From Streptococcus himalayensis (GTDB lineage: Bacteria; Bacillota; Bacilli; Lactobacillales; Streptococcaceae), in assembly GCF_001708305.1 (NCBI RefSeq), contig NZ_CP016953.1:639501-703500 (forward strand): 64,000 nucleotides of DNA. The letters run 5' to 3'. Each line of letters begins with the position of its first letter. Within the stretch, counting starts at the first letter, position 1. Position numbers and translations under genes: made by a program. Below the pieces are notes generated by a model. That model saw only the letters and a list, made by a program, of their open reading frames with translations. It was not told where the DNA came from and made no database searches. Below are positions 8,569-41,531 of this stretch, piece by piece.

Positions 8569-9141
8569 ATGGAAAGAGAAGAAATCCTCCGCTGGTTTAG
8601 GGAAGACCCCTCTATCATGGAGATTTTAAGCATTATCCGCGATTTGGGGTTAAGGGATGCATGGTTATGTGCAGGTAGTGTGCGCAACTTTATCTGGAAC
8701 AGCCTATCTGGTCACTCAGCCTTTGATAGGACAACAGATGTGGATGTTATTTTCTTTGACCCAGATATTTCTTATGAGGAGACATGTGTGATAGAGGCAA
8801 GTCTCAAAGAAAACTACCCAGAATTTCTGTGGGAAGTGAAAAATCAGGTCTATATGCATGTTCATAGTCCTCATACGAAGCCCTATAAGAGCTCGCAAGA
8901 TGCGATGAGCCGCTACCCAGAGCGTTGCACGGCAGTTGGTTTGCGTTTGCTGAACAATGATGAGCTGGACTTGTTTGCACCCTATGGTTTGGAGGATATT
9001 GTGAATTTTCGCTTGCACCCCACTCCGCACTTTTTAGAAAATGATGCTCGTCTGGCACTCTATCACGAACGAATTAGCCAGAAAAATTGGGTCCAGAAAT
9101 GGCCGAGCTTACAAAAGAATACATTGATAAGAAAAATTTAA
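8569..9141 (+). CDS. Nucleotidyltransferase-family protein (DUF925-like)
   Basis: A 190-residue protein of the NTP_transf_6 type often found next to ruvB in streptococci. It has a polymerase-beta-like core: LCAGSVRNFIWN (about residues 33-44), then the metal-binding acidic pair in DVDVIFFDPD and a C-terminal half with SRYPERCTAVGLRL and ELDLFAPYGLEDIVNFRLHPTP. Substrate and role are unknown. It is probably co-transcribed with ruvB (start 6 bases after its stop). No signal or membrane segment is seen. Confidence 0.75.
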   Translation: MEREEILRWFREDPSIMEILSIIRDLGLRDAWLCAGSVRNFIWNSLSGHSAFDRTTDVDVIFFDPDISYEETCVIEASLKENYPEFLWEVKNQVYMHVHSPHTKPYKSSQDAMSRYPERCTAVGLRLLNNDELDLFAPYGLEDIVNFRLHPTPHFLENDARLALYHERISQKNWVQKWPSLQKNTLIRKI

Positions 9142-9155
9142 AAAATCAGAGAATA

Positions 9156-9188
9156 TTTAAGAAAAGTTTAAGCTGGGAAGGCTATAAT
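9156..9188 (+). promoter_or_regulatory. CiaR-type promoter of csRNA 1
   Basis: Direct repeat TTTAAG-N5-TTTAAG (9156-9161 and 9167-9172), then exactly 10 bases to TATAAT (9183-9188). This is the arrangement known for promoters activated by the response regulator CiaR in streptococci, where the repeat takes the place of the -35 box. Confidence 0.85.
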
Positions 9189-9194
9189 GAGGTC

Positions 9195-9287
9195 ACAAGT
9201 TAAGAAAACCTTAACTTGAACCCCTAAAAACTTTTCTTTTTCATAATAATCTCCCTATGAAGCCACCCAATTCGGTGGCTTTTTTTG
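9195..9287 (+). ncRNA. CiaR-dependent small RNA (csRNA), about 93 nt
   Basis: The predicted transcript starts about 9195. It begins with a perfect stem-loop (CAAGTTAAG / CTTAACTTG), continues with an unpaired segment TTTTTCATAATAATCTCCC-like (CTTTTTCATAATAATCTCCC) and ends with a terminator (AGCCACC 9260-9266, GGTGGCT 9274-9280, T-run). This is the csRNA layout: 5' hairpin, single-stranded anti-Shine-Dalgarno/anti-AUG stretch, terminator, within the known 87-151 nt size range. The stretch would pair with mRNAs that read GGGAG...ATGAAAAA and block their translation. Position just downstream of ruvB also fits streptococcal csRNA genes. A second member lies at 32334-32427. Confidence 0.85.
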
Positions 9288-9370
9288 ATTCCAAAATGCA
9301 GTGGTTAGTCTTGTTCTTTATAGAATATAATATATTTGAATAGGCATATTTTAAATAAAAATATAAAAAA

Positions 9371-9399
9371 TTTACATTTTTGTTCAAGAGTGATAGAAT
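9371..9399 (+). promoter_or_regulatory. Promoter of the PlcR/TprA-type regulator
   Basis: TTTACA (9371-9376), 17 bases, TAGAAT (9394-9399). The predicted start gives a leader of about 28 bases before ATG 9434. Confidence 0.6.
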
Positions 9400-9433
9400 A
9401 TACTATTGGAATGAAATAAGAAAGGTAGCAGTC

Positions 9434-10306
9434 ATGGGAACATTATTGGCAACTAGAATAAAAAGTAGAAGGAAAGAACTCCGGCTCTCTCAAAAAGAAT
9501 TAGCGGATGGGATTTGTCAGCAAGGTCAAATTAGCAGATTAGAGAAAGGGGAGTATACTCCGGGTTCGGAATTATTATACCAGTTAGCTAAGAGGCTTAA
9601 TGTAAGTATGGATTATTTTTTTGATGAACAAATTTTAAATGAATCAACAGAGCTTTTTGAGTTTAAAAAAATTGCTAAAGCATTCATATCTCAAAGAAAT
9701 TATGAATCGTTGGTTTATATCTATGAATTAGAGAAAGAAAAAAATCATCGTTTATCACTATCAGACAAAATTTATTTGGAGTGGGTTGGCTCTCTGGTTG
9801 ATTTTTATTTCTATAATAGAAAGGAGGAGGCAATAGAAAGACTAGAAGAAATAGTACAATCACTTGATAAATCTGATATTAACTTTTTTCAAATTTCAAA
9901 TACTCTTTTTAATTTCTACTATGATACAGAAAATCTAGCTAGATTTGATTTAATAAAGGAAGAGTTAAAAGCTCAAGTACATCAATTAAATTTAAATACA
10001 ATAGAGGAATTGGAGCTTTCAATAAAATTTAACTTTAATCTTAGTCGTTATTATTGGCTACAAAAAAATATTGAATTAGCTATCCAACAAGTAACAGCAA
10101 CTATTAAGCTATGCCAAGATTATCGAACAACTTATTTATTAGCAGATTTATTTTTATTATTAGGAAACATAAGTAAGAACTTTTCAAATCAAACAGAAGT
10201 TAAAAGATACTTTGAAACAGCATTTTTTTTGTATAAGAATTTAGATAATAATAAAGAGATGGCTTTAACGATAGAGCATTATATCTCAAATAATTTTCAA
10301 GATTAA
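9434..10306 (+). CDS. PlcR/TprA-type (RRNPP) peptide-responsive regulator
   Basis: Cytoplasmic transcription regulator of 290 residues. Residues 6-60 form an XRE helix-turn-helix (RIKSRRKELRLSQKELADG...ISRLEKGEYTPGSELLYQLAKRLNVSMDYFF), very like PlcR and TprA. The rest is helical and Asn/Leu/Tyr rich with TPR-like pairs, the pheromone-binding part of this family. ATG 9434 has AGAAAGG 8 bases upstream; the longer frame from TTG 9380 has none. A terminator and a small exported-peptide gene follow immediately, the receptor/signal pair arrangement of this family. It probably activates its peptide gene and the RiPP operon beyond. The region is AT-richer than both flanks, suggesting acquired DNA. 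Confidence 0.85.
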   Translation: MGTLLATRIKSRRKELRLSQKELADGICQQGQISRLEKGEYTPGSELLYQLAKRLNVSMDYFFDEQILNESTELFEFKKIAKAFISQRNYESLVYIYELEKEKNHRLSLSDKIYLEWVGSLVDFYFYNRKEEAIERLEEIVQSLDKSDINFFQISNTLFNFYYDTENLARFDLIKEELKAQVHQLNLNTIEELELSIKFNFNLSRYYWLQKNIELAIQQVTATIKLCQDYRTTYLLADLFLLLGNISKNFSNQTEVKRYFETAFFLYKNLDNNKEMALTIEHYISNNFQD

Positions 10307-10315
10307 GTACTGTAG

Positions 10316-10341
10316 CGACATTCAAAAGATGTCGTTTTTTT
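10316..10341 (+). terminator. Terminator of the regulator gene
   Basis: CGACAT (10316-10321) pairs with ATGTCG (10329-10334), then TTTTTTT. Confidence 0.8.
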
Positions 10342-10402
10342 ATTTAAAAAATACAAAGAGGTACATTGTAATAAAAAAAGACACATAAAAGCATTAAAAA
10401 TA

Positions 10403-10431
10403 TTGAAATTTTGTATTTTAAGTGATATTAT
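10403..10431 (+). promoter_or_regulatory. Promoter of the pheromone-like peptide gene
   Basis: TTGAAA (10403-10408), 17 bases, TATTAT (10426-10431). It stands between the regulator terminator and the peptide gene and is the likely target of the adjacent regulator. I could not find a textbook PlcR box. Confidence 0.6.
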
Positions 10432-10459
10432 AAATCTATAAAAAATAAAGGAGATTCTA

Positions 10460-10597
10460 ATGAAAAAAGTTTTGAAAAAGCTTATCGTTATTTCTTTGTT
10501 AGCTGGTTTCGTTTTATCTATTGGAAAAAGTGGAGTTAATAACATTAGACCAATGGGAGAAATTGACCCTGGCCCTGCTAATATTCATATGAATTAA
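10460..10597 (+). CDS. Short exported peptide, probable signalling pheromone precursor
   Basis: A 45-codon gene too short for routine calling. It has AAAGGAG 6 bases before the ATG. The product starts MKKVLKKLIVISLLAGFVLS, a basic and then hydrophobic Sec-type signal, followed by about 25 mostly polar residues ending in DPGPANIHMN. Size, signal, no cysteine and position right after a PlcR/TprA-type receptor match PapR/PhrA-like pheromone genes, where the C-terminal 5-10 residues re-enter the cell through the oligopeptide permease. The mature form is not known; the C-terminal heptapeptide PANIHMN is one candidate. An alternative is a small secreted or membrane peptide without signal role. Confidence 0.75.
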   Translation: MKKVLKKLIVISLLAGFVLSIGKSGVNNIRPMGEIDPGPANIHMN

Positions 10598-10938
10598 TTT
10601 CGATAAAATAATATAATTTTTTGTAAATCCGTGTTGTAGTTAAGAAGTTTGGGTTATTAGCACAGCGTTTAAATAGCAAAGTTTAATAAAATAGTAAAGT
10701 ATAGGTTTTTTATCAAGTTTTTTGAGAAATATATTAGGAAATACTTCGTACCAAAGGCAATGTTCTCTATATTTAAAGAACTAAAGAGTCCTATATCAAC
10801 ACAGAAAAATACAGAACTTGATATTATGATGATTAAGATAAGCTGCAAAAAAGTTTATCATAGTGATTGAACTTTTTTACTATTTTAATAATTATTACGG
10901 TTGTAGATGTAAGGATCTATTTTAGTGTGGGGAGGGCT
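10598..10938 (+). other. AT-rich intergenic region before the RiPP operon
   Basis: No convincing gene. A short open frame 10760-10870 (36 codons, start MFSIFKELKSP) lacks a properly spaced ribosome binding site, and its frame stays open upstream to 10673, so it may be a decayed gene end. A weak promoter candidate is TTGAAC at 10867 with AATTAT 17 bases later. The operon promoter must lie here. Confidence 0.4.
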
Positions 10939-12030
10939 ATGAAATTTCCATATTTTAAAAAACAGCTATCTTTAATACCATATGGTGAAAAGCTATCCAT
11001 TGGTGCTACTCCAGATTTTGCATTAGAGATAACTGATCAAAGTGGTTTAGTTTATGATATATTATGTAACTGTAATGGAATTAATACCATTGGTGATATA
11101 TACAACAAATTAAAATATAAATACAATGATTTAGATATTGAAGAAGTAATTGATATTACTGATAGGCTTTCAAGTTATCCTTTGATTCTCGAAGACTATG
11201 CATTAACAGTAGAGAGTTCATTGACTCCTAGAGAGATTGAACGCCATAGTCGTACAATGAATTTCTTATCAAATTTTGATTATCTTGGAACAGAAAAAGT
11301 TAATTACATGAAGAAAATTATAAGTTCTAATGTATTAATTATTGGGTTAGGTGGTGTAGGTTCCTCGTTAGCAATGAATTTAGCAGCTTTAGGAGTACAA
11401 AAACTTTATGGAGTAGATTTCGATAAAGTAGATTTATCTAATTTAAATAGACAATTATTATATTCTGAATCTGATGTGGGTTGTTTAAAATCTGAGGCGG
11501 CGAAGAAAAAATTAGATATGTTTGATAGTTCTATTCAGTTTACTACTTTTCAGTTAGAGATAACATGCATGGAGGATGTAGAAACGCTAATAAAAGAATA
11601 CAATATTGATTTTGTATTTTGTGCAGCAGATCAACCTTCAATCTGGATATATAAATGGATTAATGAAGCGTGTCTTAATACACAAACTGCATGGATATAT
11701 GGTGGAAATAGTGAAGCCTCCTCATATTTTCAAACAATCATTCCTAAAGAAACAAGTTGTTTTAACTGCCGAGAACTAAATTTAAAAGAGTTTTCGACTG
11801 AAGGTTACTTAAAATATACTGAAGTAAAAAATCATGGATATGCAACACAAAATAATTGTCTAGCAGCAACATCATCGTGTATTACTTCATTTATGATTTT
11901 TGACTTTATTAGATATATTACAAAATTTGAAACTCCTAGGGTTATTAATCAATTATTTACTTTGGACTATAGAGATTATACAATTTCTTATTTACCAGTG
12001 AAAAAAAATCAAATGTGTAATTGTAGATAA
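10939..12030 (+). CDS. E1/ThiF-like adenylating enzyme with PqqD-like N-terminal domain (RiPP maturase)
   Basis: 363 residues from ATG 10939, preceded by GGGGAGGG; an upstream TTG (10867) is in frame but lacks a site. Residues ~1-90 look like a PqqD/RRE-type winged helix (peptide clamp), as in MccB and PaaA. From ~125 a ThiF/E1 Rossmann fold follows: GLGGVGS (136-142), Asp160 for ribose, NLNRQ (168-172), CAADQP (228-233). Cys274/Cys277 and Cys360/Cys362 can form the structural zinc site. Such enzymes adenylate a carboxylate: the C terminus in MccB (microcin C) or a Glu side chain in PaaA (pantocin). No YcaO partner is seen, so a cyclodehydratase role is unlikely. The target is probably the 34-residue peptide encoded 67 bases downstream. 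Chemistry is inference. Confidence 0.85.
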   Translation: MKFPYFKKQLSLIPYGEKLSIGATPDFALEITDQSGLVYDILCNCNGINTIGDIYNKLKYKYNDLDIEEVIDITDRLSSYPLILEDYALTVESSLTPREIERHSRTMNFLSNFDYLGTEKVNYMKKIISSNVLIIGLGGVGSSLAMNLAALGVQKLYGVDFDKVDLSNLNRQLLYSESDVGCLKSEAAKKKLDMFDSSIQFTTFQLEITCMEDVETLIKEYNIDFVFCAADQPSIWIYKWINEACLNTQTAWIYGGNSEASSYFQTIIPKETSCFNCRELNLKEFSTEGYLKYTEVKNHGYATQNNCLAATSSCITSFMIFDFIRYITKFETPRVINQLFTLDYRDYTISYLPVKKNQMCNCR

Positions 12031-12044
12031 TAATTTTAATTTCT

Positions 12045-12060
12045 GTCCCTGGAGAGGGAC
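12045..12060 (+). promoter_or_regulatory. Short hairpin before the precursor gene
   Basis: GTCCCT (12045-12050) and AGGGAC (12055-12060) form a 6-bp GC-rich stem around GGAG, with no T-run after it. It lies in the ThiF-precursor gap and may mark an RNA processing or stability element that raises precursor mRNA over ThiF mRNA. Confidence 0.4.
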
Positions 12061-12097
12061 GTTAATCAATACTACACTTGTAGAAAGGAGAGAAAAT

Positions 12098-12202
12098 ATG
12101 AAAAATACAAAAAAGGAAACTAAAAAGATTGAAATTAGAGTGTTAGATTCAGTTGAGCTCACTAAGCGTGGCGGACGTAATACGATTAATCCAGAATCTT
12201 AA
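12098..12202 (+). CDS. RiPP precursor peptide, 34 residues
   Basis: A strong ribosome binding site (GAAAGGAGAG, 6 bases before ATG) drives a 34-codon gene. The peptide has a charged leader MKNTKKETKKIEIRVLDSVE and a distinct end LTKRGGRNTINPES. It has no signal peptide and no Cys. Arg24 and Arg27 in the end part are the natural targets for the arginase-like enzyme encoded next. A Gly-Gly pair (25-26) or the Thr22-Lys23 bond could be the leader cleavage point. Glu33 and the C-terminal Ser34 are possible sites for the adenylating enzyme. It lies between the ThiF-like gene and a strong hairpin, so it would be the most abundant product of the operon. Its identity as precursor rests on context and composition. 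Confidence 0.85.
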   Translation: MKNTKKETKKIEIRVLDSVELTKRGGRNTINPES

Positions 12203-12262
12203 TTAGTTTTATTATGAATTTTGTAAGTGCATACAAGGTTCTTTTATATACAAGAGAGAGAC

Positions 12263-12319
12263 TGGGACAAACTAGGATGAGCGCGACGCGTTCATCCTAG
12301 TTTGTCCCACTCCTTTTTT
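12263..12319 (+). terminator. 18-bp perfect hairpin with T-run inside the RiPP operon (partial terminator)
   Basis: TGGGACAAACTAGGATGA (12263-12280) is exactly complementary to TCATCCTAGTTTGTCCCA (12292-12309), loop GCGCGACGCGT, then CTCC and TTTTTT. The next gene starts 11 bases after the T-run with no separate promoter, so this is probably an attenuator setting a high precursor-to-enzyme ratio. The GAG.(T)GGGACAAA word also opens intergenic repeats at 24728 and 34393. Confidence 0.8.
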
Positions 12320-12329
12320 GGGGGATAAA

Positions 12330-13427
12330 ATGAAGATAAAAAAAGAATATATATCAGCTAGAAATATTGAGAATAATATTGAGTTATCAAACTTACAAAC
12401 AGGTCAAAAGATTATTGTAAATGAATACACTTATAATGTAATTTTGAAGATGGTTGAAGGTTCTTTTCATTATGAGGGTGCAGATGCTAGTGAAATAAAT
12501 TTAATTTTAAATTATTTACAGGAAATTAATCTAGTAGAATCTGATTTAAATTATAATCTTCCTCCGGTGATCAAATCAGAGATATTATCAAGTAATGTAA
12601 ATAATAACACTAATATTATATTTATCGGAGTTCCTTATGATGCTGGTTCTACGGGGACAACTGGCTCTAAAATAGCGCCGGAGTATTTTAGAAAATATTT
12701 TTCAGGAGTTTCAAATAGCTATAATAATCTCTTTATGGAAAATTGCGATTATCAATATAAAAGTAATATATTGGGTAGAGTAATAGATATTGGAGATATC
12801 CTTTATCTTCCGGGAGAATCTATAATGGATTTTCAGGACAGAGTAAAAGATGTCATATCATTAAATTCAAGTTCAAAAATCCTAGTTATGGGAGGAGATC
12901 ATTCAATTTCGTGTTCAATAGTTGAATCCTTATCAACTGACTCTAAACAAAATATAGTTTTTGTAAAATTTGATGCCCACTATGATTGTTCTGGAACTTT
13001 TAGAAAGCTTCCGTTAAATCATCACAATTATATTGAAAAAATTAGGGAATTTGAAGGAATTAATGAGATTATACATGTTGGAGTCAGAGAGCCAAAACTC
13101 CCATTTTATAATATTTGTGATGATAAAGTATTTAACGAATATGATGATTTTAAGGGATATTTTTCAAGAGGTGAGGTCAAAAATATCTATATCTCAATTG
13201 ATATTGATGTATTGGAGCCATTAAGAAATCCAGGTACCACCTATCAAGTTCCGGAAGGATTTGAAATTGATGATTTACTAAAATATTTAAAGTTATTAAA
13301 AAAACATAATATAGTTGGAGCTGACATAGTTGAATACAATCCATTGCTTGATAAAAATAATGTATCGCTTTACAATGTGAAAAAAATTTTTGAAAAATTA
13401 GTAGAAATAATGGAGTGTAGTCAATGA
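12330..13427 (+). CDS. Arginase-family enzyme with RRE-like N-terminal domain, probable peptide arginase
   Basis: 365 residues; ATG 12330 follows GGGGGA, a TTG at 12318 is rejected. Residues ~1-80 resemble a PqqD-like recognition domain (LQTGQKIIVNEYTYNVILKM..., then LNYLQEINLVE). From ~95 the ureohydrolase fold: GVPYDAGSTGTTG, GGDHS (188-192), DAHYD (215-219), SIDIDVLEP (289-297). All six manganese ligands are present: His191, Asp215, His217, Asp219, Asp291, Asp293; LNHHN (229-233) matches the substrate-side His. Free-arginine arginases and agmatinases lack the N-terminal domain. Peptide arginases such as OspR turn Arg in RiPP precursors into ornithine, and the adjacent precursor has Arg24 and Arg27. 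Its stop overlaps the next start (ATGA). Function is inferred, the fold is sure. Confidence 0.88.
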   Translation: MKIKKEYISARNIENNIELSNLQTGQKIIVNEYTYNVILKMVEGSFHYEGADASEINLILNYLQEINLVESDLNYNLPPVIKSEILSSNVNNNTNIIFIGVPYDAGSTGTTGSKIAPEYFRKYFSGVSNSYNNLFMENCDYQYKSNILGRVIDIGDILYLPGESIMDFQDRVKDVISLNSSSKILVMGGDHSISCSIVESLSTDSKQNIVFVKFDAHYDCSGTFRKLPLNHHNYIEKIREFEGINEIIHVGVREPKLPFYNICDDKVFNEYDDFKGYFSRGEVKNIYISIDIDVLEPLRNPGTTYQVPEGFEIDDLLKYLKLLKKHNIVGADIVEYNPLLDKNNVSLYNVKKIFEKLVEIMECSQ

Positions 13428-13948
13428 AGGCATTAATTATTTTAGATTGTCAAAATGGAATGTTTTCTAGAGGAAATTTTGAAGTTCTAAGAAACAATAT
13501 TTTGAAATTGCAAAATATTTTTAAATCGAACGGAGACATCATTATTAGCACAAAGCATATTGACAATGATAAAGAAAGTATTATTTATAGTGGAGATATA
13601 AGTGGACTTTTGGATGAGCAGCTATCAAAACTTTCCAATTTTATTATTGAAAAAGACTCTCCGAATATCTTCAAAAGTAAAGAATTGAATGATATTTTAT
13701 TAAATAATCAAATAAATGAAATTGTTATTACAGGTTTCAATGCTGAGTACTGTTGTCTATTTTCTGCAATTATTGCTTCAGATAGAGGTTATAAAGTTAC
13801 GTATATTGAAGATGCAACCGCAACGGTTAACAATGGTAATACCTATGACATGCAAGATTTAGATATTACTGATTTTGTGGGTTGTATATTGGATTGGTCG
13901 GGAGAAGTTGAGGTTTTATATTTTGAAGAGTTCAGCAAAAAAAATTAA
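13424..13948 (+). CDS. Isochorismatase-like cysteine hydrolase
   Basis: 174-residue protein of the isochorismatase/nicotinamidase superfamily. The Asp-Lys-Cys triad is visible: Asp8 (LIILDCQNG), Lys77 (EKDSPNIF) and Cys110 (TGFNAEYCCLFSA). Members hydrolyse amide, ureido or similar bonds in small molecules. The ATG overlaps the arginase-like stop codon, so the two are translationally coupled and probably work on linked steps. It might process a group made by the adenylating enzyme or arginase, or supply a small building block; the substrate cannot be told. It is rare to see this family inside a RiPP operon. Confidence 0.82.
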   Translation: MKALIILDCQNGMFSRGNFEVLRNNILKLQNIFKSNGDIIISTKHIDNDKESIIYSGDISGLLDEQLSKLSNFIIEKDSPNIFKSKELNDILLNNQINEIVITGFNAEYCCLFSAIIASDRGYKVTYIEDATATVNNGNTYDMQDLDITDFVGCILDWSGEVEVLYFEEFSKKN

Positions 13949-15074
13949 ATTCTTCTCAGACTTTGTGTGTAAAAAAGAAGGAGAGAATTCTTATATAGTT
14001 GGAAGAAGAAATTTAAATCGTTATATTGAAATTTCAGAAGATGCATATGAAATTATTAAATCAATAATGGAATTGGAGAATTTGGAATTAGTTAAGTATA
14101 AATTATTCTCTTTCTCTACTGATGAGATAGAAAATTTTATTAGTAAATTAGTTGAATTAAATTTTCTTGAAATATTCAATGGGGAATTGATTACGTCTGA
14201 AAATATTAATAAAAGAGGGATTAGTTTTCCATGGATTAGGCAAAGAGTACTGAAACGCATTTTTAACAAAGTGACTATTCTTGTATGGGTACTATATCTA
14301 AGTTATGTTTATTTGATTTTGATTCCTCAATTATCAGTTTCTTTGTTAGACTATTCAGATATCTTTTTTTCAAAATCTCTATTCATAACAACTATGACAG
14401 TCACAGTATTAGATTTTATTTTAGTAATGTTACATGAATTCAGTCATTTTTTATCAATTAGACTTCTTGGTGGAGAATTAGGTTTTATTGGTATAGGAAG
14501 AAGATTCTTTTATTTTGTTTTTGAGACTCGAATTGATAATATTTGGCTATTAGAAAAGCCGAAGCGTATACTAGTTTATTTGTCTGGGATACTTTGTGAC
14601 ATTACACTGTTATCATTTTTTATTTTAGTTGCAAATTTTACTAAAGTTCAGTTGTTTTATAATATATCAAAGGTTACAATACTCCTTCTAGTAGTTGGTA
14701 TAATTTTTGAATTTAAGTTTTATTTAAAAACTGATTTATATTTTGTTATAGCTGATATTATTGACTCTAGAAACTTAATGACAGACTCGCTTATGTTTAT
14801 AAAATCTTATTTTAAGCATAAAGGGATCTCGGCTGCATCTAAGTATTATAGTATTCTGATTGGTTTAGGATTAATAATTGAACTTTTTATTCTTGTTAAA
14901 GTAGGGATTCCAGCTAGTATATTAGCAGTCGTTCAAACTTATAATAATTTTATAAATGAAGAATGGGATTATTTTTTATCAAATTTAGTTGTTATTCTAC
15001 TCACATTTATTGAATTACTTATTGTAGGAATAATATTCTTTAAGGAGAAATTAAGTCAATCTAGTAATCTTTAA
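13923..15074 (+). CDS. M50-type membrane metalloprotease with PqqD-like N-terminal domain
   Basis: About 383 residues. Only TTG starts are available; TTG 13923 has GAGG 9 bases upstream, TTG 13908 and 13875 are alternatives, and all overlap the preceding gene. Residues ~1-90 look like a PqqD/RRE-type domain (NLNRYIEISEDAYEIIKSIM...FISKLVELNFLE). Then several membrane helices, the zinc motif HEFSH (171-175) inside a helix, and later FYLKTDLYFVIADI, whose Asp fits the second metal-binding element of site-2-protease/YydH-like enzymes. It probably removes the leader at the membrane or helps release the product. It is the last gene of the operon; no ABC transporter follows. Confidence 0.82.
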   Translation: MKSSAKKIKFFSDFVCKKEGENSYIVGRRNLNRYIEISEDAYEIIKSIMELENLELVKYKLFSFSTDEIENFISKLVELNFLEIFNGELITSENINKRGISFPWIRQRVLKRIFNKVTILVWVLYLSYVYLILIPQLSVSLLDYSDIFFSKSLFITTMTVTVLDFILVMLHEFSHFLSIRLLGGELGFIGIGRRFFYFVFETRIDNIWLLEKPKRILVYLSGILCDITLLSFFILVANFTKVQLFYNISKVTILLLVVGIIFEFKFYLKTDLYFVIADIIDSRNLMTDSLMFIKSYFKHKGISAASKYYSILIGLGLIIELFILVKVGIPASILAVVQTYNNFINEEWDYFLSNLVVILLTFIELLIVGIIFFKEKLSQSSNL

Positions 15075-18811: not shown

Positions 18812-19111
18812 CTATCTGCCAAAAGTCATACCAACACTGAGTAAACCTCGTCCAAGCTCTTGCTTGCTTTTTGCATAATAAGCGATTTTTTGGTAAAAAT
18901 TAGCTACTTCTTTGGACAAATGGGTGTTTTTGCGGATATTTTGAACAGCTAGTTGTCGGAGTTCTTCTGCCAAGTAAGGGATGAGCAGGCTCATATCTTT
19001 GTTTGGATGGGCTTGGTCCTTAAATCGGCGTAAAATCGCTCGTTCCTCTTCCTTGATAGTGGGATTTAGGATGAGATTGACTATTTCTGTGAGAAGGTCA
19101 TTATCAGTCAT
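18812..19111 (-). CDS. Bacteriocin-immunity-like protein (EntA_Immun type)
   Basis: 99-residue, highly charged helical protein (LLTEIVNLILNPTIKEEERAILRRFKDQ..., HLSKEVANFYQKIAYYAKSKQELGRG), resembling the four-helix immunity proteins that protect against pediocin-like bacteriocins. GGAGGAAAG stands 7 bases before ATG 19111; the longer frame to 19129 is not needed. The start lies inside the 3' end of the S66 peptidase gene (8-base overlap), so both are made from one message. No bacteriocin structural gene is seen beside it, so it may be a stand-alone immunity gene. Between its stop and the yhgE terminator only a short meaningless frame is left. Confidence 0.7.
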   Translation of the reverse strand: MTDNDLLTEIVNLILNPTIKEEERAILRRFKDQAHPNKDMSLLIPYLAEELRQLAVQNIRKNTHLSKEVANFYQKIAYYAKSKQELGRGLLSVGMTFGR

Positions 19112-20069
19112 CGTTTCTTTCCTCCACATGTACGGTCAGGGTCTTTGTATCAATGCTTACGGTCGCTCCAATGGTGACTGTAAAGAGGGGCTGAGTATGG
19201 GCAAAGTCCATGTCATAGATGACGGGTATGGTCTGTAAGACAGGGTATTTGTCTAGGATGTAAAGGAGAAGTTCTTCGGTCATTTCGCATTCTTTTGGGA
19301 AACGCCCGATGAGGACAGCCTTGGGCTCTGGGTAGGCTTGAAGGAGTGCTGCAAGAGCACGGTCAAAGTTGAAATAATCGTCTTCCTCAGCTTCTTCTAA
19401 GAGGAGGATGTAGTCCTTGTCTTGTGGTGCATAGGGCGTGCCACGAAGGAGCGAGAAGGTGGACAAATTACCACCGATAGCAGTAGCCTTAGCTTGTCCG
19501 TGGTTGTAAACTTTCCATTTGGTTTGATGAAAGGTCATTTCCGCATCCGGCAGATACCAAGCATTGCTCCCCCATTCCTTGCTTGGGGTCAAGTCATAGG
19601 AAGTCTGGGTCAGGGCTTTTAGCCAACTTTCTGTCTGATAGTCTTGGAGAGCTTTCATCTTAAAGCTAGAATAGGCTGGTCCCATATAGGTGTGCAGTCC
19701 AGTTTTTGCATAAATGGCATTGAGCAGGGCGGTTGTATCAGAATAACCACAGAAAGGCTTAGGATGAGCCTTAATCAGCTCATAATCCAGATAAGGCAAC
19801 AGTTCATTGCAGTTAAAGCCACCAATCGTGGTTAAAATCATACCCACGCTATCGTCTAAAAAGGCTTCGTGCAAGTCAGCTACACGACTGTCGATACTGG
19901 CTGAGTCTAGCATATCATGCTCATCGTAATGGCTTGAAAAGGATACCTGAAATCCAAGCCCTTCTAAACGCTCTTTGGCCGCTCGATTGGCTTCAAATCC
20001 ACCGATGCTCTCAATGGAAGAAGAGGGACTGACAACGCGAATATGGGCATTTTTAAGCAATTTTTTCAT
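19104..20069 (-). CDS. S66-family peptidase (LD-carboxypeptidase/MccF-like)
   Basis: 321 residues from ATG 20069; AAAGGAGG is 7 bases upstream, while the ATG at 20075 is too close to it. S66 features: VVSPSSSIES near the N terminus, ILTTIGGFNCNELLPYLDY, the nucleophile elbow FCGYSDTTALLNA (Ser110), IGGNLSTFSLLRGTPY, LLLEEAEEDDY (Glu) and DMDFAHTQP (His). Members are either muropeptide LD-carboxypeptidases or MccF enzymes that inactivate microcin-C-type aminoacyl-adenylates. The sequence has the MccF-like length and layout and no signal peptide. It is coupled to the immunity-like gene. Whether it relates to the adenylating RiPP enzyme 7 kb away is open. Confidence 0.82.
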   Translation of the reverse strand: MKKLLKNAHIRVVSPSSSIESIGGFEANRAAKERLEGLGFQVSFSSHYDEHDMLDSASIDSRVADLHEAFLDDSVGMILTTIGGFNCNELLPYLDYELIKAHPKPFCGYSDTTALLNAIYAKTGLHTYMGPAYSSFKMKALQDYQTESWLKALTQTSYDLTPSKEWGSNAWYLPDAEMTFHQTKWKVYNHGQAKATAIGGNLSTFSLLRGTPYAPQDKDYILLLEEAEEDDYFNFDRALAALLQAYPEPKAVLIGRFPKECEMTEELLLYILDKYPVLQTIPVIYDMDFAHTQPLFTVTIGATVSIDTKTLTVHVEERNDD

Positions 20070-20171
20070 TAGCATACCTCCTTTGATGTTTGTTTAGTAT
20101 ACTCCTTTTTCAGAGGAAATGCAAGGCTTTTCAGGCTGAAACTGTAGAATAGCTATTTTAAAAGTTTTGTA

Positions 20172-37849: not shown

Positions 37850-38015
37850 GTTGGCGAAAGCCAAATGAATAGGATAGTCTTTCTATTTTCAGTTAGTGCG
37901 AGGCAATGCATCGCAGGCATAACTGGAGTTAAGCAAGATGCACTAATGACGTAATAAGTGAAAATAGACGGACTATGAAACTAAAACGAGCCTGGCTCGT
38001 CCATTACAACGGAGG
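37850..38015 (+). promoter_or_regulatory. Structured 5' leader of rpmF-rpmG
   Basis: About 175 bases with strong secondary structure: TTGGC-GAAA-GCCAA right at the start, then a long closing helix ATAGTC..CTATTTTCA (37874-37891) with TGAAAATAG..GACTAT (37959-37976), enclosing TTAGTGC (37993 minus 100, i.e. 37893-37899) with GCACTAA (37940-37946), and ACGAGC-CTG-GCTCGT (37986-38000) directly before GGAGG. This looks like a ribosomal-protein autoregulatory leader. I know no Rfam family that matches. Confidence 0.65.
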
Positions 38016-38025
38016 ATAGAAAGAA

Positions 38026-38208
38026 ATGGCAGTACCTGCACGTCGCACATCAAAAGCGAAGAAAAACAAACGTCGTACGCACTACAAATTGACAGCTCCA
38101 TCTGTCCAATTTGACGCAACTACTGGAGATTACTCACGTTCTCACCGTGTATCTTTGAAAGGATACTACAAAGGACGTAAAATCGCTAAAGCTGCAGCAG
38201 CTGAATAA
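38026..38208 (+). CDS. rpmF: Ribosomal protein L32
   Basis: 60 residues, [20 protein letters not shown]..., ending in [18 protein letters not shown]. It is the zinc-free form without the CxxC pairs, usual for streptococci. GGAGG precedes the ATG and rpmG follows after 15 bases, both part of the 50S subunit. Confidence 0.97.
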
Positions 38209-38223
38209 TAGAAGGGAGATACC

Positions 38224-38373
38224 ATGCGCGTAAATATTACACTTGAACACAAAGAATCTGGTGAACGCTTGTACCTTACTTCTAAAAACAAACGTAACAC
38301 TCCAGACCGTCTTCAATTGAAAAAATACTCACCAAAATTGCGTAAACACGTAATTTTCACTGAGGTTAAGTAA
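38224..38373 (+). CDS. rpmG: Ribosomal protein L33, cysteine-free form
   Basis: 49 residues, [21 protein letters not shown]... to HVIFTEVK. No Cys, so this is the zinc-independent paralogue type. GAAGGGAGA precedes its ATG. It shares the rpmF leader and promoter. Confidence 0.97.
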
Positions 38374-38510
38374 GGGTTTCATTACACGTCAATAGACGTC
38401 AAAATATTGATTTCATATGATTTTTGAAATTTTTTGAATTTCACTATATTACAGTAGAAATCAATAGAAACTCTACCTTTTAGATAAAAATATTGAAACG
38501 GATAACGATT

Positions 38511-38537
38511 AAACCGCTCTTACGAGTGGTTTTTTGT
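38511..38537 (+). terminator. Terminator after rpmG
   Basis: AAACCGCTC (38511-38519), TTAC, GAGTGGTTT (38524-38532), then T's. Confidence 0.75.
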
Positions 38538-38556
38538 ATACCACTAATTCCAATGC

Positions 38557-38584
38557 TTGCATTATTTTCTAAAAATGCTACAAT
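38557..38584 (+). promoter_or_regulatory. Promoter of the antisense RNA
   Basis: TTGCAT (38557-38562), 16 bases, TACAAT (38579-38584), extended TG. Confidence 0.7.
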
Positions 38585-38590
38585 AGCAGT

Positions 38591-38708
38591 AGAAAAGGAG
38601 TTGGTTTGCCGACCAACTCCCATGTAGAACCGTTAAAAAAACGGTGGCTTCATATATTAGATTATAATCTCGTCTACTTAGCCAAAAGTGGGGACGGGAT
38701 TATTTTTT
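38591..38708 (+). ncRNA. Probable type I antitoxin RNA, about 118 nt
   Basis: Starts after a good promoter, contains the stem GGAGTTGGT (38597-38605) / ACCAACTCC (38612-38620), a second stem CCGTT/AACGG, and ends in a terminator AATCTCGTC (38666-38674) / GACGGGATT (38693-38701) with a T-run. It converges on and overlaps the 3' end of a small holin-like toxin gene on the other strand, the usual layout of RatA/TxpA-type pairs. Confidence 0.7.
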
Positions 38709-38846
38709 ATCTCGAAGCAGAATTAAGGCAATCACAAATGTTAGTAGGCTGATGATAAAACCACCAAAACCTAACATTACTTGCAATGCTTCCGCAACTG
38801 ACAAGATGCTACTCCTTTCTAAGTGGATTTGCGTACTTACATTCAT
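38700..38846 (-). CDS. Putative holin-like toxin (Hol-Tox family)
   Basis: 48 residues: a short polar start with HLERSSILSVAEAL, then one hydrophobic helix (VMLGFGGFIISLLTFVIALILL) and the end RDKK. The ERRS-LSV-EAL-LM..FG.F...LL motif is the Hol-Tox pattern of Firmicutes. ATG 38846 has GAAAGGGGTGG upstream; a second site (AAAGGAG) and TTG at 38804 could start a 34-residue form. A promoter with extended -10 TGATATAAT (minus, about 38910-38902) precedes it. The opposing RNA would act on its 3' end. Such peptides depolarise the membrane when unchecked. Confidence 0.78.
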   Translation of the reverse strand: MNVSTQIHLERSSILSVAEALQVMLGFGGFIISLLTFVIALILLRDKK

Positions 38847-39009
38847 AAGCACCACCCCTTTCAAAATTTGTAGCCACCGTCTTCACTTTTCTACAGAATC
38901 TATTATATCATAAATTACAACTAACTCTTTTATCCTCATTCTCCAGAGATTGTTGGAATAGTTTGTTCTTTCCAACGATTGCTGAGAATATAAAAGCAAC
39001 TCCCGAATA

Positions 39010-39120
39010 TGTACTGACCCCCAAAAGTTGGACAATAAATTATTGCAAGGATTTAGTTCTGTACTGGACAAGGCTAAGTCCTTTTAATTTTACTTTAATG
39101 CGTTTGTTATTGTATGTGTC
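39010..39120 (-). mobile_element. IS3-family remnant (transposase 3' end plus terminal repeat)
   Basis: On the minus strand the last ~25 codons of an orfB transposase read YNNKRIKVKLKGLSLVQYRTK..., ending in a stop at 39040. They are followed by the element end with GTCCAACTTTTGGGGGTCA (39010-39034 region), an IS861/IS150-group type terminus. Everything upstream of the ~25 codons is lost. It sits in the otherwise gene-free stretch 38847-39291. Confidence 0.75.
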
Positions 39121-39134
39121 TCTTATTCCTACAA

Positions 39135-39163
39135 AACAAAAAAAGCAAGTCCAAAACTTGCTT
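39135..39163 (-). terminator. Terminator for the 83-residue protein gene
   Basis: On the minus strand AAGCAAGTTTTGGACTTGCTT forms a stem followed by TTTTTTT (plus 39132-39160). Confidence 0.7.
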
Positions 39164-39291
39164 AATGACCATTTACGTCATATATATATGAGATATAGTG
39201 GTAAAATATCCAATTTTCTTACGGTTAAATTCAATCTCATCAAAACAAGAACTATCTGCTCTCTCACTTGTTAAGTAGCGAGCAACCAATT

Positions 39292-39543
39292 TCAAGGTAA
39301 GAATGACTTGATTGTGTTTATTTGTCTACTATCATCAGTCGCCAGTCGCTCCTCACGGCTAATAAGATACCAATTAGAACGAATTTGCCTGTACTCAATA
39401 GCATTTTTTACAAAGTCCAACCAATACTCTTCAAACTCCGTCTCTCTCTTTTTCATTGTATCTAGTATTTTTTGATGATACTCCTGACATTTTTCAAATG
39501 ACAACGTTCCTTTTTCATCTAGAAATGTTTGATAAGAAAACAT
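39292..39543 (-). CDS. Hypothetical protein, 83 residues
   Basis: Starts MFSYQTFLDEKGTLSFEKCQ with AAAGGGG 6-8 bases upstream. Charged, mostly helical, soluble, with aromatic residues in EFEEYWLDFVKNAIEYRQIRSNWYLI. No family recognised. It lies beside a CPBP protease gene on the same strand and next to an IS remnant. Own terminator downstream. Confidence 0.55.
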   Translation of the reverse strand: MFSYQTFLDEKGTLSFEKCQEYHQKILDTMKKRETEFEEYWLDFVKNAIEYRQIRSNWYLISREERLATDDSRQINTIKSFLP

Positions 39544-39616
39544 AGCGTCCCCTTTTTACTATTTCATATAGATTACGATAAATATTTAAAAACCCAATGG
39601 ATAACTCAATGAGTTC

Positions 39617-40453
39617 TCATATCCGTTGTTTCTTTAATCTCCATGCGATAGCCGCTGAACCTAAAAGACAAACAAGTGGTGTGATAATAGAACCTGTAAG
39701 ACCTCCCTCTCCTCCGCTGATTAAAGGAACATCTTTTGAAATAATAATATTAATTAAAAAATTATCCTGCCATTTGGGACTGATATTAATGAAATATACC
39801 ATAATATTCCATATCACATGTCCCCAAGCGGCATTCCAGATAGAATCAGAACTTTCAGTAATGTATGCAAAGAGAATGGCTATGGCTACTGCACTAAAGA
39901 AAAACTGAGAGAATGTGGTAATTGTCCAGTTTGCATTGTCGTTTGGTAAGTGCACCAACGCAAAGATAATCGCTGTCCCAAAAGCAGCCCACCAAACTGA
40001 CAGTTTTTGACGAAAAAGTGGATATATTAAAGCATGAAATATCACTTCTTCCGTTACGGAACCAAGAAAACCAGTATAAATAATTCCACCGACGAAAGTT
40101 TCAACAAATGGGAAGTTCGTGCCAATAGCTCCTAATTTACCTCCAAGTAAAATTGCAATGATAGCTGTTACAATAAGTGGTAGCAAAGTGACCAATACAA
40201 CCCATTTCCAGTTAAAACTGACTCTTTTTAACCCATAAGCAGACGGATTATCTTTTAGAAAATATCGGATAATCAGATATGCTATTAATATAACAGAAAT
40301 ATTAACGAACGGCACAAAAACAAGAACACCTAAATTTTGATTATACTCAAATAATGGTACAAGCGGAAAACCTAGAATGATTTGCGTAGAAAATAATCCC
40401 AAAAGTCCGAGTAATGTAGCCGCAATAATTTTTCCCCATGATTGTTCTTTCAT
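39617..40453 (-). CDS. CPBP-family intramembrane protease
   Basis: 278 residues, about eight membrane segments. CPBP/Abi motifs: TEEVIFHALIYPLF (the paired Glu; the usual Arg of EExxxR is His here), ALVHLPND and the late WGHVIWNI. Such glutamic proteases (Rce1-like) are often linked to bacteriocin immunity or modification in lactic acid bacteria. No bacteriocin gene is next to it. It ends in a basic tail. The Arg-to-His change in motif 1 is a point to check. Confidence 0.82.
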   Translation of the reverse strand: MKEQSWGKIIAATLLGLLGLFSTQIILGFPLVPLFEYNQNLGVLVFVPFVNISVILIAYLIIRYFLKDNPSAYGLKRVSFNWKWVVLVTLLPLIVTAIIAILLGGKLGAIGTNFPFVETFVGGIIYTGFLGSVTEEVIFHALIYPLFRQKLSVWWAAFGTAIIFALVHLPNDNANWTITTFSQFFFSAVAIAILFAYITESSDSIWNAAWGHVIWNIMVYFINISPKWQDNFLINIIISKDVPLISGGEGGLTGSIITPLVCLLGSAAIAWRLKKQRI

Positions 40454-40641
40454 AAAATTCCTCTAATAAAAAATATTCAAAATATTTTCCATTTTACACC
40501 AATTATCACAAAAGTGTCAAGTTTTCTGAAATTTTTTGAATCAATCATCAAAAGTACCAAATCTCATTATCTTTTGATCAGACTGCCTATGAAATTCTCT
40601 GTAAAACAGGGGCTCCTAATCATTTTCTTTTATAAAAGCCC

Positions 40642-40670
40642 TTACATTTTCTGGATTTTTTTGGTATAAT
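40642..40670 (+). promoter_or_regulatory. Promoter of the formate/nitrite-type transporter
   Basis: TTACAT (40642-40647), 17 bases, TATAAT (40665-40670), with TG one base before. Confidence 0.65.
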
Positions 40671-40724
40671 CTTATATTGTGATAAACTTCTCAATTAGGA
40701 AATGGTAGAAAGATAGGAAACCGT

Positions 40725-41531
40725 ATGGCAGGACAAGATCAAGCATTGATGTACACAATCGATAAAAGTATCAAGAAAAAGGCTGACTTGATTGAAAGCA
40801 ACTATTGGGCGTATGCCCTTCGATCGATTTTTGCGAGTGTCTATCTGGCACTTGGGATTGCCATTGCGCTCTACACAGCAGACAAGCTCGAGCATGTGGC
40901 AGCAGGACTCGGGAAATTTAGCTACGGTCTCATGTTTGGCTGGGGGCTCCTTATGATTCTTTATATGAATGCCGAACTCGGTACATCAAATATGATGTAT
41001 ATGACGGTGGCAATGGCGCGCAAGGTTATTCCAACCAAAACAGCCCTGAAAATTCTAGCAACCTGTATTTTCTTTAATTTCGTTGGAGCGGTCTGCATCA
41101 CCTTGCTGCTCTCGCAAACAGCTCCTTTTTCTCTTGGGCATGTGGCACCTGATAGCTATCTTATCCAAGGAACCGTTGCTAAGATTGCTAAAAGTCCACT
41201 GACGCAGTTTATCGAAGGAATTTTTGCCAATGCAGTGGTCAATATTGCCGTCTTTGTCTTTCTAAAAATGAAAGACGATGCTGGAAAGGCGATTGCCGTC
41301 ATTTTCATCATTTTTATCTTTGCTTTCCTCGGCTTTGAGCACGTCATTGCCAACTTCTCAACCTTCTCCCTTGCCTTCTTTTCTAATGGTGGGCCTGTCG
41401 AAGGAATGACTGCCTTTTCTGTCCTTTCCAATTTCCTCTTCTCAGGACTGGGGAACTTTGTTGGAGGTGGCCTACTGATAGGTTTCCTATACCATTGGCT
41501 CAATCAGCAGTCAACGATTTATATCGATTAA
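40725..41531 (+). CDS. Formate/nitrite transporter family protein
   Basis: 268 residues with six membrane segments. FNT features: GLMFGWGLLMILYMNAELGTSNMMYMTVAMARK, NFVGAVCITLL, FANAVVNIAVFVFLKMKDDAGKAIAV and FEHVIANFSTFSLAFF followed by GLGNFVGGGLLIGFLYHW. Probably a channel for formate or a related small anion made in mixed-acid fermentation; the exact substrate is not fixed by sequence. A hairpin terminator follows. Confidence 0.85.
   Translation: MAGQDQALMYTIDKSIKKKADLIESNYWAYALRSIFASVYLALGIAIALYTADKLEHVAAGLGKFSYGLMFGWGLLMILYMNAELGTSNMMYMTVAMARKVIPTKTALKILATCIFFNFVGAVCITLLLSQTAPFSLGHVAPDSYLIQGTVAKIAKSPLTQFIEGIFANAVVNIAVFVFLKMKDDAGKAIAVIFIIFIFAFLGFEHVIANFSTFSLAFFSNGGPVEGMTAFSVLSNFLFSGLGNFVGGGLLIGFLYHWLNQQSTIYID

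Follow-up and report, generated by a model that had tools for sequence, protein, structure and literature searches.

Streptococcus himalayensis appears to carry a small biosynthetic cassette for a ribosomally synthesized and post-translationally modified peptide (RiPP) in which one enzyme may create the nucleophile that a second enzyme uses to close a ring. The cassette lies within a 64,000-nucleotide stretch of contig NZ_CP016953.1 (hereafter the window), where seven plus-strand genes occupy an AT-rich island at positions 9434-15074. These encode a regulator, an exported peptide, a ThiF/E1-like adenylating enzyme with an N-terminal RiPP recognition element (RRE), a 34-residue precursor peptide, a predicted peptide arginase, an isochorismatase-like cysteine hydrolase, and an M50-type membrane protease. 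We propose from the sequences that the arginase converts precursor arginine to ornithine and that the RRE-bearing ThiF enzyme activates either the C-terminal or a glutamate carboxylate, which the ornithine amine then attacks to form a macrolactam. Held jointly with the view that the block is a conserved, mobile-looking RiPP cassette, this proposal comes just short of an even chance of being correct.

A conserved gene cassette

The order of the ThiF gene, the small open reading frame (ORF), and the arginase, hydrolase, and protease genes is kept in four lineages: the window itself, S. cuniculipharyngis (L029), Alkalibacterium olivapovliticus (L180; proteins P0004, P0125, and P0224), and plasmid pJEK46-1 of Macrococcus armenti (L139), from whose gene table the small ORF is missing. 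The S. cuniculipharyngis proteins are 90% (ThiF), 80% (arginase), 89% (hydrolase), and 82% (protease) identical to those of the window. A joint search of ThiF neighborhoods with the arginase had been suggested in an original prediction made from the letters of the window, and it bears out the pairing: by tblastn (E 1e-4), 10 of 189 ThiF loci, which represent the four lineages with some repeats, have both the arginase and the hydrolase, and the 179 others have neither. The 189 loci comprise 152 distinct ThiF stretches, and absence means little in the 73 loci that are shorter than 5 kb; 108 distinct arginase-free stretches come from loci of at least 9 kb. The same prediction spoke of an undescribed RiPP cluster combining ThiF, arginase, isochorismatase-like, and M50 genes, and on the sequence side it survives, as the genes stand together beside a small ORF in all four readable arginase lineages and not scattered without one. 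On circumstantial grounds, three further protein sets (P0001 with P0122 from S. suis, P0005 with P0127, and P0006 with P0126 and P0225) each seem to come from one contig. No relatives at E 1e-70 were found in 80 genomes of one family. A distant arginase (27% identity) on plasmid pWHA07 of Mammaliicoccus sciuri (L200:6941-8080) sits amid hypothetical proteins, a pyridoxal phosphate-dependent enzyme, an ABC transporter, and a GNAT gene, and this region is perhaps another peptide-arginase cluster.

The precursor peptide

The putative precursor, MKNTKKETKKIEIRVLDSVELTKRGGRNTINPES (34 residues; positions 12098-12202, plus strand), is made up of a leader-like part, KIEIRVLDSVELT, and a core-like part, KRGGRNTINPES. 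The other three cassette precursors are MKDSKKETKKIEIKVLDSVELTKRGGRNTINPES, MVIQVKVLDEVELTKRGGRNTINPES, and MKIEIVQLNEVELTKRGGRNEVGES. Fifteen columns are invariant in the four peptides (M1, I11, L16, V19-N28, E33, and S34), among them R24 and R27, so that all four share the motif VELTKRGGRN and a C-terminal Glu-Ser. A conserved short peptide adjoins the ThiF gene in each lineage. Comparison of leaders would place the core at KRGGRNTINPES, with both Arg24 and Arg27 inside it; alternatively, a cut after the Gly-Gly pair would leave RNTINPES.

Over the last 20 codons, the window and Alkalibacterium genes have 6 identical codons, 13 silent changes, and 1 replacement, and over all 34 codons the window and S. 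cuniculipharyngis genes have 23 identical, 8 silent, and 3 replacement. The codon changes are nearly all silent, and the peptide itself is thus under selection. Its small size and the lack of family matches above cut-off would be expected if no RiPP were made and the small ORF had arisen by chance beside metabolic genes. However, its retention at the same place in four lineages and the excess of silent over replacement changes already contradict such an origin, which we regard as scarcely credible.

The ThiF/E1-like enzyme

The adenylating enzyme (363 residues; positions 10939-12030, plus strand) matches PF00899 (E 1.1e-49), a domain found in all 14 members of its family, and its profile matches MccB (5e-37) and PaaA (1e-34), the latter from profile position 4 and thus including the RRE of PaaA. 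Domain models detect the RRE only faintly in the family, with weak PqqD matches in 4 of 14 members and PaaA-like_N in 2 of 14; the enzyme of the window has neither. R171, K184, and D231 are invariant in the alignment. The first two align where PaaA has SNINRQ...GKNK, and all three can be paired with R167, K180, and D225 of EnfB by order, not by alignment. Like the described ThiF-type RiPP systems, the cassette combines an RRE-ThiF fusion beside a short precursor, the Arg, Lys, and Asp of the ATP site, and MccB-like CxxC-type cysteines.

According to the portions of PMC12250964 and PMC12150305 cited here, the characterized enzymes of ThiF-type RiPPs work by adenylating a carboxylate for attack by a nucleophile, which is a backbone amide in enterofaecin, an indole in the ind peptide, and a thiol in GRC. 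The four cassette precursors differ from each described type in their core residues. Pantocin A requires a core Glu-Glu pair, the GRC thiolactone a core Cys that attacks an activated Glu, and enterofaecin and ind a Trp near the C-terminus, and none of these features is present in any of the four. The C-terminal Asn of microcin C is replaced by Ser in all four. Membership in the microcin C, pantocin A, GRC, and enterofaecin/ind groups is rejected on these residues.

The relation to microcin C deserves further comment, as the best matches of the enzyme among solved structures are MccB. Were the cassette microcin C-like, the ThiF enzyme would attach a nucleotide to the peptide C-terminus, and the hydrolase would provide self-immunity. 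A Peptidase_S66 gene lies about 4 kb beyond the island (positions 19104-20075, minus strand), and the microcin C immunity protein MccF is a member of this LD-carboxypeptidase family. Further, plasmid pE73 of Exiguobacterium carries three tandem 20-residue ORFs (L140:6545-6840, minus strand) with the same translation, MKTVVIKKNSVRAKVVLGYN, next to genes for a ThiF protein and an O-methyltransferase, and their C-terminal Asn recalls microcin C. However, the best named model for the S66 gene is a muramoyltetrapeptide carboxypeptidase (under cut-off), the DNA common to the window and S. cuniculipharyngis stops before that gene, and a family scan of the seven island proteins found no family linked to MccD, MccE, or MccF. 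The C-terminal Ser of the precursors also stands against the modification of Asn by MccB (described in part of PMC12250964). A microcin C-like pathway is very unlikely, and the adenylated product that had been among the original suggestions is disfavored along with it.

Several ThiF enzymes, P0007, P0008, and P0010 (also P0009 and P0012; one is from Cytobacillus massiliigabonensis), have C-terminal tails of their own, such as LKGGETNENHYQSTK. These tails resemble KRGGRN, and each may represent a precursor that has become part of the enzyme.

The arginase, the hydrolase, and the protease

The predicted peptide arginase (365 residues; positions 12330-13427, plus strand; PF00491, E 7.6e-40) begins with an additional domain of about 70 residues. 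H191, D215, H217, D219, D291, D293, and E335 are invariant in all eight members, and the Macrococcus row agrees. The first six are putative metal ligands by analogy with aligned arginases. An OspR-type arginase (PF12640) was rejected, as all eight members match PF00491 and none matches PF12640. The N-terminal domain is predicted to fold as three strands and two helices (block pLDDT 72-91) and lies outside the coverage of solved relatives, and structure comparison mainly concerns residues 80-365; one Foldseek row (9fek_G) spans 369 columns at a poor rmsd of 12.9. As reported in part of PMC12703449, peptide arginases, including the PF00491 enzyme KgrD of enteropeptin, form ornithine in RiPPs. 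The cassette enzyme shares with KgrD and OspR-type arginases the ureohydrolase fold, the metal ligand set, and a RiPP context, and with KgrD the PF00491 family; it differs in not belonging to PF12640, in its extra domain, and in its ThiF partner, the comparison with KgrD being by description and not by sequence. No radical SAM protein was found among the seven island genes in the family scan.

The isochorismatase-like hydrolase (174 residues; positions 13424-13948, plus strand; PF00857, E 1.3e-20) retains an Asp-Lys-Cys set, with D8, K77, C110, and C111 invariant in all four cassette enzymes. It belongs to a distinct subfamily, with 38 of 39 matches at an identity of at least 41%, some of them partial. 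While 135 of 284 genomes of the genus have some isochorismatase relative, the cassette type (E <1e-94) is found only in the window genome and S. cuniculipharyngis, the next match being at 9.4e-20. Isochorismatase-like enzymes such as MhIHL and SttH can open lactams, as stated in the cited parts of PMC5353710 and PMC11702664. The cassette hydrolase shares with them PF00857 and the Asp, Lys, and Cys pair at triad-like positions, but it forms its own subfamily and, within the 284 genomes, occurs only with the cassette. Four hydrolases of the cassette type (P0213, P0215, P0217, and P0218; 67-75% identity) each represent from 63 to 2,534 member sequences; some microbiome may therefore commonly contain the cassette or its hydrolase.

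Both enzymes have relatives that act on small molecules, and it could be argued that the arginase and the hydrolase handle arginine, agmatine, or amides for immunity or supply, with modification of the peptide left to the ThiF enzyme and the protease. The closest named model for the arginase is agmatinase, as are its closest solved sequences; those for the hydrolase are biuret hydrolase and nicotinamidase, and its closest solved sequence is an N-carbamoylsarcosine amidase-related protein. The scores nevertheless fall under the curated cut-offs in each case (128 bits vs 174 for agmatinase, 33 vs 370 for biuret hydrolase, and 30 vs 174 for nicotinamidase), the arginase has its extra N-terminal domain, and the invariant core Arg tracks the arginase. 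We consider a role on small metabolites improbable.

The final gene encodes a membrane metalloprotease of the M50/site-2 type (383 residues; positions 13923-15074, plus strand, with a TTG start and an HEFSH motif), and an RRE is predicted at its N-terminus. Its model matches are all under cut-offs (M50, E 0.052; daptide and YydH/LiaK RiPP metalloproteases, 7.5e-7 and 8.1e-6). The HExxH motif, within a membrane helix, is invariant in all 11 proteases (H171, E172, and H175), as are T270 and D271, of which D271 is probably the third metal ligand, and SpoIVFB is among the weak structure matches. The predicted RRE of the protease is PqqD-like. PqqD is detected in 5 of 11 members, though not in the window's own protein; the top structure matches are RRE proteins (E 0.018 or worse); and hhalign aligns this domain with the ThiF RRE at 23.8 (best of 16 decoys, 14.5) and in reverse at 19.4 (14.1).

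A wider family of ThiF and M50 peptides

Loci with a ThiF enzyme of the same type (26-34% identity) and an M50 protease are found in Brevibacillus formosus, Bacillus, Metabacillus, and others. Here, precursors of the form MKIxAKKVExVRTT carry a 13-residue leader similar to that of the cassette; unlike the cassette, these loci have neither an arginase nor an isochorismatase. Their small ORFs include MKIQAKKVESVRTTAVAA. Fifty arginase-free loci were scanned with a regular expression for the leader, which the window precursor itself fails, and 16 distinct peptides were recovered at 12 of the 50 loci once alternative starts had been merged. Arg follows the leader in only 1 of these 16 peptides, as opposed to 4 of 4 arginase-type precursors. 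A 13-column profile built from 13 distinct leaders picks out KIEIRVLDSVELT in the window precursor and the corresponding segments in the other three cassette precursors, with 31, 9, 21, and 339 of 20,000 shuffles reaching the respective scores. One Bacilli genome (G700; L190) has two ThiF genes along with four precursors of the MKIQAKKVE type.

Proposed mechanism

The ornithine amine presents itself as the natural nucleophile because ThiF enzymes adenylate carboxylates and peptide arginases make ornithine, and such a role is consistent with the invariant Arg, the invariant Glu-Ser at the C-terminus, and the presence of a partner from an amide-hydrolase family. In the proposed pathway, the leader (KIEI..LD.VELT) would bind in strand form to the recognition domains of both the ThiF enzyme and the protease. 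Arg27, and possibly Arg24, would be converted to ornithine by the arginase. The ThiF enzyme would then adenylate either the carboxylate of Ser34 or the side chain of Glu33, and attack by the ornithine amine would yield a macrolactam. The M50 protease would remove the leader to free the product. The isochorismatase-like hydrolase would cleave an amide, opening the ring for self-protection, trimming it, or deamidating Asn28.

It is possible that the two chemistries are instead independent of each other. In that case, the ornithines would stay free as tailoring, and the ThiF enzyme would close the peptide through another nucleophile, be it the hydroxyl of a Ser or Thr, the side chain of an Asn, or, as happens in enterofaecin, a backbone amide. 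The nucleophile does vary among ThiF-type RiPPs, as described above, the ornithines of landornamide remain free (according to part of PMC12703449), and the wider ThiF and M50 family works without an arginase and mostly without a core Arg. Asn28, Lys23, the backbone, and Ser34 are also invariant in the core as candidate nucleophiles. Against independence, Thr29 is not conserved, being Glu in Macrococcus, and the presence of Arg behind the leader divides the arginase-type precursors from the others. Independent chemistries are a serious alternative, albeit one that we judge doubtful.

Several observations weigh against an ornithine-bridged ring or loosen the argument for it. All of the chemistry is deduced from sequence, and the choice of the ornithine amine as nucleophile follows from co-occurrence alone; in its place, Lys23, the backbone, or the side chain of a Ser or Asn could act. 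In Macrococcus, the core (RNEVGES) has one residue fewer, which would give a ring of different size. Actinomadura (L045; TGDRQNNT) has Arg behind the leader in an arginase-free locus, and many leaders of the wider family themselves contain Arg, as in VRTT. The cassette leaders score 2.4-15.5 bits, below all leave-one-out scores of the family (19.9-38.9), so their kinship to it is distant, and two of the four cassette precursors are near-identical in the leader comparison. The N-terminal domain of the arginase is not readily tied to peptide recognition: PqqD is found in none of the eight members, hhalign scores it at 20.5 against the protease RRE (narrowly above the best of 16 decoys, 16.2) and at 14.9 against the ThiF RRE without beating decoys, and P0127 lacks the domain, while the Macrococcus enzyme has a short version of it. 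The streptothricin review regards lactam opening by SttH as a probable side activity (in part of PMC11702664). Finally, the family scan found no exporter among the seven island genes. The genome does have two C39-peptidase genes elsewhere, but double-glycine export is not assumed here, as ELTKRGG departs by one residue from the canonical spacing.

The ornithine-macrolactam proposal can be extended to a RiPP class of its own, in which the arginase would bare an ornithine amine for the ThiF enzyme, the product would be an ornithine-bridged macrolactam around RN...ES, and a co-evolved isochorismatase-like lactamase would act as editor or immunity factor, the leader, ThiF enzyme, and RRE-protease having been inherited from the wider ThiF and M50 family. 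We put this fuller picture forward tentatively, with rather less confidence than even odds would express.

Genomic setting and regulation

The AT-rich island and the gene families first assigned to it are confirmed by base composition and family matches. The G+C content is 0.257-0.307 in 1-kb steps from 9001 to 15000, compared with 0.365-0.488 in five steps on each side; a second dip (0.35-0.36) occurs in the window at 38001-41000. Upstream of the island are RuvB and NTP_transf_6 genes, and downstream are a TetR-type gene and a YhgE/Pip gene. The nucleotidyltransferase (NTP_transf_6) gene is present in 22 of 41 genomes. It adjoins ruvB at 9 of the 11 loci viewed, and a TetR or YhgE gene lies within 1.5 kb of it at none of the 11. 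By blastn, the window resembles the S. cuniculipharyngis locus across 9435-10598 and 10918-15068 and nowhere outside the island, which argues that the block moves as a unit. A viral or phage origin was rejected: scans of viral contigs turned up 10 ThiF loci, 25-53% identical over their best segment, and no relative of the arginase, and in phage records there were 7 partial matches to ThiF, at about 30-33% identity.

The island begins with a PlcR/TprA-type (RRNPP) regulator of 290 residues (positions 9434-10306, plus strand; HTH_3, E 4e-13), which matches PlcR (2qfc) by phmmer over residues 5-271 (E 1.5e-11). A copy in S. cuniculipharyngis is 77% identical, and relatives in L125 and L126 are 66% identical. 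This is followed by a 45-residue exported peptide of the PapR/PhrA type (positions 10460-10597, plus strand) that ends in EIDPGPANIHMN; copies end in EIDPGPANSYVK (L002 and L029) and EIDPGPANIIRR (L196). In a 2025 survey of the salivarius group, the PapR/TprA-like pheromone precursor Sthermo_1 of S. thermophilus (JIM8232) ends in GIDPGPANIMVK, and a peptide from its C-terminus was present in the supernatant (from part of PMC12445099). The exported peptide had been recognized at the outset, and we can now refine its role: because its tail, EIDPGPAN, matches the GIDPGPAN of S. thermophilus, it is very probably a quorum pheromone. The tail is similar in shape to the pneumococcal pheromones VDLGLAD and LDVGKAD as well (given in part of PMC5436883). 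As in the streptococcal TprA/PhrA and PapR/TprA-like systems, a PlcR-type regulator precedes a pheromone gene with a conserved C-terminal motif; the difference is that here the pair precedes an arginase-type ThiF cassette, which it would turn on in response to cell density. In L196 (3473-5864), a TprA-like regulator (66% identical) and the pheromone EIDPGPANIIRR stand before a different ThiF gene of 321 residues, 3' of which is a transporter-like ORF of 415 residues.

The island was at first read as one operon. The overlaps at 13424-13427 (arginase and hydrolase) and 13923-13948 (hydrolase and protease) are real, but a single operon does not follow, given a terminator-like hairpin behind the regulator (positions 10314-10336, plus strand), a gap of 341 bp between the pheromone and ThiF genes, and a strong hairpin between the precursor and arginase genes. 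The last consists of 22 pairs and a T-run (positions 12263-12309, plus strand; z -10.6 for the stretch 12200-12335) and is a likely attenuator; S. cuniculipharyngis has a hairpin and T-run of other sequence at the same position (z -4.8). These hairpins suggest attenuation, by which more precursor would be made than downstream enzyme. A small hairpin, GTCCCTggagAGGGAC, lies 5' of the precursor (positions 12045-12060, plus strand) and is weak (z -1.5 in the window and -1.4), with identical letters (GTCCCTGGAGAGGGAC) in S. cuniculipharyngis. The ThiF frame of P0003 (Streptococcus k-628) seems to read into this hairpin, giving a VPGEGR tail.

Novelty and significance

The RiPP type itself is known, and within the open-licence text of PubMed Central the enzyme set is new among described ThiF-type RiPPs. 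Text searches found no paper there (supplements, where an unlabelled node may exist, lie outside it) that joins ThiF with an arginase or isochorismatase in a RiPP context. Neither the ThiF-RiPP review nor the ind paper mentions arginase, isochorismatase, ornithine, or M50 in its main text; likewise, arginase and ornithine are absent from the 2026 Rgg/RaS-RiPP review, and ThiF from the main text of PMC12703449. As far as the cited portions of PMC12250964 and PMC12150305 extend, the ThiF-type RiPP enzymes described so far use a nucleophile already in the peptide. If the proposal is true, the prior formation of the nucleophile by an enzyme would establish a new principle and offer a practical tool for ring closure. 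The cassette would also link a streptococcal quorum pheromone dialect (EIDPGPAN) to a specific product, and it points to a large uncharacterized ThiF and M50 family with a recognizable leader that could be tested with one precursor and two enzymes.

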